DNA from: Brachycybe producta
Taxonomy: Eukaryota; Arthropoda; Diplopoda; Playtdesmida; Andrognathidae
Length of the DNA: 64,000 bases
Reading direction: 5' to 3'
Assembly (NCBI GenBank): GCA_036925085.1
Contig: JAUPFP010000004.1
Coordinates: 2,494,001-2,558,000 of the forward strand
Shown here: in pieces, positions 31,101 to 34,100 of the stretch
Position numbering within the stretch: the stretch's first letter is position 1
Layout: each line of letters opens with the position of its first letter
Notes under the pieces: generated by a model
What the model was told of the DNA's origin: nothing
Seen by the model: the letters and a program-made list of their open reading frames with translations, nothing else
The model's database searches: none
Made by a program: the position numbers and the translations under genes

Positions 31101-34100
31101 TCTAAAGAACGACCAGAATAAAAACCACCTAAATAGCTGTAACTGATCGATAAATCGATTCCCAAGGGGGGTTTCTGAACCTCAAAGGATCGAAAACATT
31201 TAGGACATCTATAAAAAAATGGGTTTTAACAAATAAGGGTTAAAAAGGTTTCGTAAAGCCGAAATAAAAACACAAAGAACTGCTCGTAAATGGTTTTTGG
31301 AACTATCGATTTCGAGGATTATTGTTATGAGGAGGAGGAGGAGGAGGAGGAGGAGAAGAAGAAAAAACATTTTTGTGCCGTAGTTTTAAGGGTGAGCGTT
31401 TTTTTTTTCTTATTTCTTGTACTTTAGAATTTTGTTACCTGTTTCGCCAGGTGGCAGGCACGATCTGGCGAATTCAGAATTTCGTAATAAAAGACCGAGA
31501 AGTTGAGGGCGAGGCCCAAACGGATTGGATGAGTGGGTTGCATTTTAGCTTTACTGATATCGAAAGCCTCCTGATAAGCTTTCTGAGAATCCTCGATTAC
31601 ACCTGAGAAACGAACACGAGACAAACACGAACGGACACAGAGAAAAAGGAAAATAGAAAAGAAAAAACAAAAAAAACAAAAAGGTCGTTAAAAATGGTTG
31701 ATCGGATTTCGAAGACTGACCTGTTTGGCTAACTGGCACGCTTTGTCGGGAGAATTCAAGATCTCGTAGTAGAATACTGAAAAATTGAGAGCCAGACCCA
31801 ATCGTATCGGATGCGTCGGCTGCATCTTTGCTTTACTGATTTCGAACGCATCTTGGTAAGCTTTCTGTGAATCTTCTACGACGGCTAAACGAAACGCCAG
31901 GTTAATACTTAAAACACGCAACCAACAGAAGAATCGCAATCGAACTCATTAACTGGACAAAAGTTAGGTCCCATAATAAGAGACCCCGATCTTAAATCCT
32001 TCATAGTTAGCATTCATTTTGAAACTAGCTAAGTCAACGGCTCAGAAATTGTTTCATTTACAAAAACAATTCTGAACTAATTTTCAATCTGTTTTTCTTC
32101 GATGATTTTCTCATTTAAGACATATTTTATGTAATTTTCAACTTCTAAAGTGGCATTTGTAAAAACCCTTTAAATTGTCGTTACGGTTTCTGTCAGACGA
32201 AGCCCCTCGAGTATCGCCACGGTCATTTCAAAAGTGTAGACGCTCCGTACCCATGGAGTGGCGCCACTCCCCACGTCGCGCGCTACATTCCAGCTAGAGC
32301 GACTTCAGTCGCCACTCACGTGGTGCCACCGTGTCACAACTAAATTTTGCATCTGTCTACTAAAGTCGCGAATCAAGTGGCTAAACGGCGTGGCGCCACT
32401 CGAGTCCCTTCGTCTGACAGACGCCTAACGGTTGGCACGAACAGGCGACTTTTAAGTGTTCGCCAAGGTTGGCGTCTTTCCATAAAAAATACATTGCGAC
32501 GACAGCCCATCGACCTTCAACTTCATTTTGTCGCCAAAAGGTCTTTCCAAAGTCGCCCGTGTGCCAAGAAACTAAATCAATTTTTTTAATAAAAAAAATT
32601 AACGAAAAATCAATTGTGATTGCCAGAAATTCTAATTTAAGATTAAAAATTTGAAAAATATTTTTAAACTGTAACATTATTCATTTTCCGCAGTTTCTTT
32701 TAATAGTTTTACTTGAAATGATGGGACATTCAAATCTTGAAAAATATTCGAAAACTCGAATCTTCGCTTTTTTATCTTTCCTAAAAAAAAAAACTGGTAA
32801 AATTAGTTTTAACTCCATTGACGTCCAATAGAAGCGTTCAATAACAAAAAGACGGTGATTGTCGCAATTTTGATGAAGTACCCGGATCACCAATGGATCC
32901 CCTTGTGGCGAACCTTAGTGCCACACTTGTTTTTATTAATAATTTAATATTTCATTTATTTGTATCTTAATGAATAATATAGGATTCTTATATGAAGGTT
33001 TCGAGAACCTTTCAGGATTCGGACCCAAGAAAATTTAGGATTTATCCCACCTCTAGTTTTATTCAATTTAAATTATGATTTTATAATAAATTATTTCAGT
33101 CACAAAAAGTGTATTTTGAAATTTTACTGAACTATTTTTAAAACCAATTTTTTCTCCCTTCAAACTGAACCTTTTATGTATTCTTAAAAAAAAAAAAGAT
33201 CTAGTAGTTACTAAGATCTGACACTAGATGGCGACACAGTCGCGGCTGTTTGAAACGTCAAAATAAACACATGACTCAGTCAGTCAGTCAGTAGAAGTAG
33301 TAACCGGTCTTTTTCGGGCATAACTTTTTAATACCATTTTAAGCCATGATATTATTTCGGCAGCATTTTGCAAACAATTCCTCGACTATAAAACGCAAGA
33401 CCACCAGATAGCAGCACCATATCATCGTAAAACTCAATTTTTTTCCCCCGTGCCCATAAAAACAACCCCCCCCTTAGCCGCCCACACTCCTTCTAGAAAC
33501 CAAGATTTCTAAGTTTTCAATTATTTCTTGTCTTAAATTCTTGAAATCTGTGCTCGTCCTCCCGCCCCCCCCCCTTTTCTCCACTGTGACACACGTCACC
33601 AGAAGCCAATTTTTTTTTTTGGTTGACAGTTGTAATAATAAAAAACGGTTTCGTTTTCTCGTGTTGATTATATACTTACTATTCCTACTTTCACCGGTGG
33701 CGACCTCAGCAAGATACCTGTAGTAATCGCCCTTCATCTTCAGGTAGAACACCTTACTCTCTGCGTTACTCGCCTTGGGAATCAAGTACTTATCTAGAAG
33801 GCCCTTCAACAACGAAAACAAATAGAAAAAACCAAAACGTTCAATGCAGGGCAACACACGTACGCATGCGCAACAGAAAACAAAAAACCCCGTCAATCAT
33901 GACGTCGTCACGAGACGGACCGCACGTGCAAAAATGAATGCGTTTCGAAAGCGAGTCAAGAGAAACACGATGAACACCCCTTAGAAAATTATTTTAAGTT
34001 TTATATCAAACTAGAATAGCAAACAATTTTCAAAAAATTATCTTTAAAAATAAGTTTATTTTATGTGTTTATTTTTCATCCTGGGCCTGAGGAGCTTTTT

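Follow-up and report, generated by a model that had tools for sequence, protein, structure and literature searches.

The exon pair of mammalian α-tropomyosin is kept mutually exclusive by steric block and is characterized by a short intron, a branch point near the donor and a long AG-free pyrimidine tract. In Lepidoptera, a 14-3-3 xi exon cluster is reported with inter- and intra-intron pairing, according to the title of a 2012 study by Yang et al. in RNA Biology. For steric interference, a published criterion is a donor-to-branch point distance of less than 50 nt (PMC5740500). The closest described system is the exon 5 cluster of Drosophila 14-3-3zeta (leonardo). Three mutually exclusive exons make up this cluster, and its docking site lies downstream of them (PMC6071210). 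Its elements are named IE1, IE2 and IEa (PMC4174434), and the three isoforms are described as spatially restricted (PMC3795638). The preliminary description of the present locus had pointed to this insect counterpart, and it is indeed published. The locus described here shares with the Drosophila cluster the protein family and, as predicted from the sequence, a tandem arrangement of mutually exclusive exons. However, two exons are present instead of three, and no downstream docking site is detected by complementarity. With high confidence, the locus is interpreted as a 14-3-3 zeta gene in which the third coding exon exists in two functional forms that are used in a mutually exclusive manner.

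The window, which is the whole 64,000-nt stretch of DNA that was analysed, belongs to a eukaryotic assembly of 295 Mb in 442 contigs. The complete coding region of the 14-3-3 zeta gene runs along the minus strand from 37262 to 28178; the gene model covers the coding exons. Coding exon 1 (36969..37262, 294 nt) begins with the ATG at 37262 and matches the Pfam 14-3-3 family at 120 bits. Exon 2 (33680..33803, 124 nt) ends with the first base of codon 140 at the donor ATA|gtaagt. Codon 140 is therefore split, with A from exon 2 followed by CC from the first alternative exon or GT from the second. These alternative exons, 3a (31721..31884, ending DKACQLAKQ, donor CAG|gtcagt) and 3b (31439..31602, ending DRACHLAKQ, donor CAG|gtaaca), are both 164 nt long and are read in the same phase. 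The 118-nt intron between them (31603..31720) is devoid of AG from its position 4 to the acceptor. Exon 4 (28323..28418, 96 nt) and the last coding exon (28178..28237, 60 nt, TGA stop) complete the gene. The introns measure 3165, 1795, 118, 3020 and 85 nt in order, and AG/GT is observed at every internal exon border. The interval 31439-31884 thus corresponds exactly to both copies and the intervening intron, and the two intact, same-phase 164-nt copies 118 nt apart, as reported previously, are exact to the base with AG/GT borders. A tblastn search of the window found no third copy of the exon, the next matches having E values of at least 0.60.

Several repeats are located in the introns of this gene. 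The intron that follows coding exon 1 contains an inverted repeat at 34279-34377 / 34468-34566, with 99-nt arms that are 82% complementary and 90 nt apart; it looks, from its sequence, like a small MITE-like hairpin transposon. A second inverted repeat, at 32189-32221 / 32389-32421 in the intron before 3a, has 33-nt arms with 85% complementarity. Just after 3b, a GAG/CCT microsatellite (31329-31355) is complementary to a stretch of the intron before 3a that is G-rich on the gene strand (33501-33584). Elsewhere in the window, an open frame on the minus strand (56283-56732) encodes a laminin G domain (58 bits) and is part of a neighbouring gene.

Either alternative exon alone yields a protein of 245 aa, through the order E1-E2-3a-E4-E5 or E1-E2-3b-E4-E5. 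Against the PF00244 profile, the predicted 3a and 3b proteins reach 366.3 and 365.8 bits over residues 10-229, where the cut-off is 33.2 bits. Each alternative exon also exceeds this 14-3-3 cut-off by itself (3a, 83.1 bits; 3b, 83.3 bits), which excludes chance as the source of the two exons. Among PDB chains, a zeta chain scores highest (500 bits), zeta and beta chains come next, and human zeta reaches 435 bits. A separate epsilon-like 14-3-3 gene is present on contig C124 of the same genome. It contains a 63-nt GT...AG insertion across which the frame stays open, and which looks like a very short, read-through-capable intron. By best matches, which are not a tree, the gene in the window is assigned to 14-3-3 zeta rather than epsilon. 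No processed copy preserving a splice junction was found in the genome, in which the 8 profile matches all correspond to exons of either the zeta or the epsilon-like gene. Alignment to the human chain is gapless, so that residues are numbered here as in human zeta. The alternative exons encode residues 140-194, and the six differences given in the preliminary description (T140S, V142I, D151E, E154D, K187R and Q190H) were exactly reproduced. The phosphopeptide groove comprises residues K49, R56, R127, Y128, N173, V176, E180, N224 and W228. All nine sit in columns that are invariant between the two isoforms, and the earlier statement that no phosphate-contact residue differs holds for these residues. 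Partner preference or dimer behaviour, away from the phosphopeptide contacts, probably distinguishes the two proteins.

Joint inclusion and joint skipping of the two exons both abolish the full protein. A message with both exons stops at codon 196, one codon beyond the 3a/3b join, and a message with neither stops at codon 169. Two exon junctions remain downstream of the stop in the both-in message. A stop with exon junctions still downstream is a typical target of nonsense-mediated decay. Because of this early stop directly after the join, any 3a-3b joined message would be erased by this pathway, and each productive mRNA would take either 3a or 3b. The frame argument made previously thus stands. 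The accompanying statement that the exons must be mutually exclusive is correct insofar as the other combinations are non-productive, but "must" is too strong, since both-in RNA could arise and then be destroyed. The two exons are neighbouring homologues of equal length and phase with their own splice sites, and very probably act as working mutually exclusive exons.

Joining of 3a to 3b is probably disfavoured, and one candidate cause is the short intron together with a branch point near the donor. The sole consensus branch point (yUnAy) in the 3a-3b intron is the predicted candidate TTAAC at 31687..31691 (minus strand); the distance from the 3a donor to its second A is 33 nt. A non-consensus A (TTCTATT) at 67 nt might also serve as a branch point. 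The last consensus branch point is predicted at 50 nt from the donor in the 85-nt intron between exons 4 and 5, and at 44 nt in the predicted 63-nt intron of the epsilon-like gene. The shorter distance of 33 nt in the 3a-3b intron, compared with 44 and 50 nt in these two introns, supports the steric part of the model. However, a last consensus branch point at most 38 nt from the donor also appeared in 154 of 2000 shuffles of the 3a-3b intron (89 others were motif-free) and in 4 of the 32 GT...AG 118-mers of the window that have a pyrimidine-rich end. The short-intron argument is weak, given these controls, the alternative A at 67 nt and the predicted 63-nt intron that seems to be spliced. The long AG-free tract is given no weight as a special sign: AG-to-AG gaps of 111 nt or more number 39 among 6317 in the window and 7 among the 175 with a pyrimidine-rich, acceptor-like end, and the intron between zeta exons 1 and 2 has a longer one of 174 nt. 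The 3a-3b intron shares with that of α-tropomyosin its short length, a branch point close to the donor and an extended pyrimidine tract free of AG. In contrast to α-tropomyosin, the branch point here is predicted and very short introns seem usable, so that the block is less certain; the predicted 63-nt intron suggests that the splicing machinery of this genome copes with little room. A short-intron block of 3a-3b joining is possible, and a real steric contribution to exclusivity is judged somewhat less probable than its absence. Alternatively, tissue-dependent repressors, or RNA pairing that one sequence does not allow to be recognised, would disfavour the joining.

A competing RNA structure of the fly type is a doubtful account of the choice at this locus; in it, a selector located between 3a and 3b would bind a docking site beyond 3b, so that 3b is looped out. 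Its precedent is the downstream docking site published for Drosophila 14-3-3zeta. Two pairings in the present gene are comparatively strong. The G-rich stretch of the upstream intron (33501-33584) can pair with the pyrimidine tract between 3a and 3b at -30.7 kcal/mol, a value reached by 7/100 and 3/100 shuffles, and the same G-rich stretch pairs with the (CCT)n after 3b at -42.4, which was reached by 0/20 in each of two shuffle controls. However, these stronger pairings are formed by low-complexity tracts, and the G-rich/CCT pairing would loop out both exons; for the latter reason, it does not explain a choice between them. The remaining comparisons are at chance: pairing was reached by 46/100 and 45/100 shuffles for the 3a-3b intron against the downstream intron, by 82/100 and 78/100 for the start of the downstream intron against its remainder, by 90/100 and 89/100 for the end of the upstream intron against the 3a-3b intron, and by 54/100 and 50/100 for the end of the upstream intron against its remainder. 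Moreover, the exon-pair region folds no better than its shuffles (z +1.29; 93/100 fold at least as well). Among ungapped helices in this one sequence, no docking-site complementarity above chance was found.

The divergence of the two copies indicates their age and the selection acting on them. Exons 3a and 3b differ at 43 of 164 nucleotides. The third position differs in 37 of 55 codons, and fourfold sites whose first two bases agree differ in 17 of 19 cases, consistent with the wide synonymous difference claimed before. The Nei-Gojobori synonymous proportion is approximately 1.0 (saturated, with no finite dS), and the nonsynonymous proportion is 0.058. By comparison, a simulated drifting copy subjected to 43 random hits retained a mean of 33.3 and a maximum of 41 of 55 residues over 300 runs, and gained a stop in 73% of these runs. 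Since 49 of 55 residues are kept in the actual pair, compared with at most 41 of 55 under drift, selection on both copies is needed. The comparison of the coding sequences thus indicates that both copies have been long retained as protein under purifying selection, and the saturated silent sites indicate that the pair is old, as had been proposed. Together, selection and saturation argue against a recent duplication, an assembly doubling or a dead copy. Third-position GC is 0.53 in 3a and 0.51 in 3b, close to the 0.52-0.63 of the remaining exons. The flanks upstream of 3a and 3b share no sequence above chance (118/200 shuffles reach the score), and those downstream share one local alignment, which was reached by 1/200 shuffles and is perhaps of low complexity.

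The genome provides several observations on the host. TTAGG arrays are abundant, with 499 forward and 7180 reverse matches, compared with 3 and 0 for a control pattern. Because of these arrays and a mitochondrial contig that is readable under the invertebrate code, the host is considered an arthropod. The mitochondrial contig (C442; 15,359 bp, 81% A+T) appears strongly rearranged, as read from open frames and tRNAs: nad4L-nad4-nad5 are on the cox1 strand with nad1 opposite, and cox1 adjoins cox2 without trnL2 between them. A stretch near 4800 recurs inverted near 10761, suggesting two control regions. A match of this gene order to thrips or to the centipede Strigamia was rejected, as the orders described in the accessible parts of the literature do not fit. 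Presumably nuclear cox1 copies are found on the large contigs C1 (12697416-12698753) and C17; one nuclear-type copy is full length with one TAA that is absent from the mitochondrial copy. The 18S rRNA gene is unusually long, with a 2702-nt match to the eukaryotic model, seen in two loci, that starts from the edge of the examined locus. Its loci are on C82 and C57, the latter contig carrying four copies at a spacing of approximately 32 kb. For arginine kinase, the pieces present reach 395-409 bits with the top-scoring solved chains of single-domain type and 381 bits with other chains; we take the former to be decapod crustacean and the 381-bit chains to be from Limulus. Eight weak odorant-receptor-like matches (best 32 bits) were obtained, and a search of the genome, performed without a positive control, returned no odorant-binding-protein match.

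Comparison with insects was based on three sequences: a single insect chain, a peptide from a moth and a 14-mer from the fly. Over the 55 residues of the exon, the best PDB chain (6nyb and nine other entries) agrees with 3a at 54, differing in S140, and with 3b at 50; at the six discriminating positions, 3a shares its residue in five. The zeta chain of 6nyb is presumably an insect-cell protein that co-purified with its partner. For the moth, a proteomic study of the diamondback moth lists a peptide matched to a Heliothis virescens record (PMC3702551). This printed peptide is identical to N139 and the start of 3a over 19 residues, T140 included, and carries the 3a state at all four discriminating positions it covers; the following residue is S in the peptide and A in both copies here. 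The lepidopteran 14-3-3 xi cluster would be in the same gene, by its title, and the moth peptide and the insect-cell chain are nearly equal to 3a. For the fly, the 14-mer printed for Drosophila exon 5c (PMC4174434) reads S-P-A-R in the best-fitting frame, at residues 184-187, with 3 of 4 residues fitting, which suggests that the exon 5 cluster probably encodes the same protein segment. One of its six frames ends in a stop, which was scored with R; the reported frame is unaffected. At the DNA level, the match of this printed 14-mer is 9/14, no better than chance (7283 of 20,000 shuffled 14-mers equal it). Exon 5c may therefore carry R187 like 3b, which is a lead only, read from that short printed sequence.

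R187 and H190, the 3b states, are also present in two unrelated eukaryotic 14-3-3 genes on public contigs, and the epsilon-like gene of the host has R187 with R190. The two public genes appear fungus- or alga-like by reading of their sequences. They are encoded on a Verrucomicrobiaceae MAG contig and on a contig filed as viral, both records being likely cases of contamination or mis-binning. They were the two 14-3-3 matches among the public contigs and neither is an arthropod exon pair; the phage collection gave none. In the literature searched, with a 10-residue stretch and six further words, no 3b-type peptide was found, and no 14-3-3 exon cluster from a non-insect arthropod was found in the literature searched.

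An independent origin of the pair in this lineage, rather than inheritance with the insect clusters, is unlikely. Convergence would be in line with two exons here against three in Drosophila, and with the unshared upstream flanks of the two copies. However, saturated silent sites mark the pair as old, and the agreement of 3a with the insect chain and the moth peptide also speaks against it without being decisive; nor is the possible R187 of the partly printed exon 5c decisive, as R187/H190 occurs in unrelated eukaryotic genes. Given the age of the pair and the near identity of 3a with the available insect forms, inheritance is favoured, and shared ancestry with the fly cluster appears likelier than convergence, which leans towards the first of the two origins left open in the preliminary description. 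That one copy alone is used and the other is a relic or rarely spliced is very improbable: both donors (gtcagt in 3a, gtaaca in 3b) depart from gtaagt, but although silent sites are saturated, no decay is seen in either copy, and frame and splice borders are intact in both.

The preferred reading remains a 14-3-3 zeta gene with two working, mutually exclusive third coding exons. A further proposal, which we consider speculative and improbable, is that the two-exon form would be the ancestral arthropod 14-3-3 zeta switch, predating the fly and moth clusters. Under this proposal, 3a and 3b would each be orthologous to insect exons and the switch would work by intron geometry and decay, with the docking-site switch of the fly added later with the third exon. 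Mutually exclusive 14-3-3 zeta exons are already known in insects, and the present locus is a further, sound but ordinary case. It adds a clean two-exon example to a switch already known from arthropods, and the genome in question is not necessarily that of an insect. If 3a and 3b grouped with the fly and moth copies in an exon tree, an old mutually exclusive pair would be dated, and a simple starting state would be provided for the origin of the RNA-structure switch of the fly; otherwise, the locus would be a confirmation of known biology.
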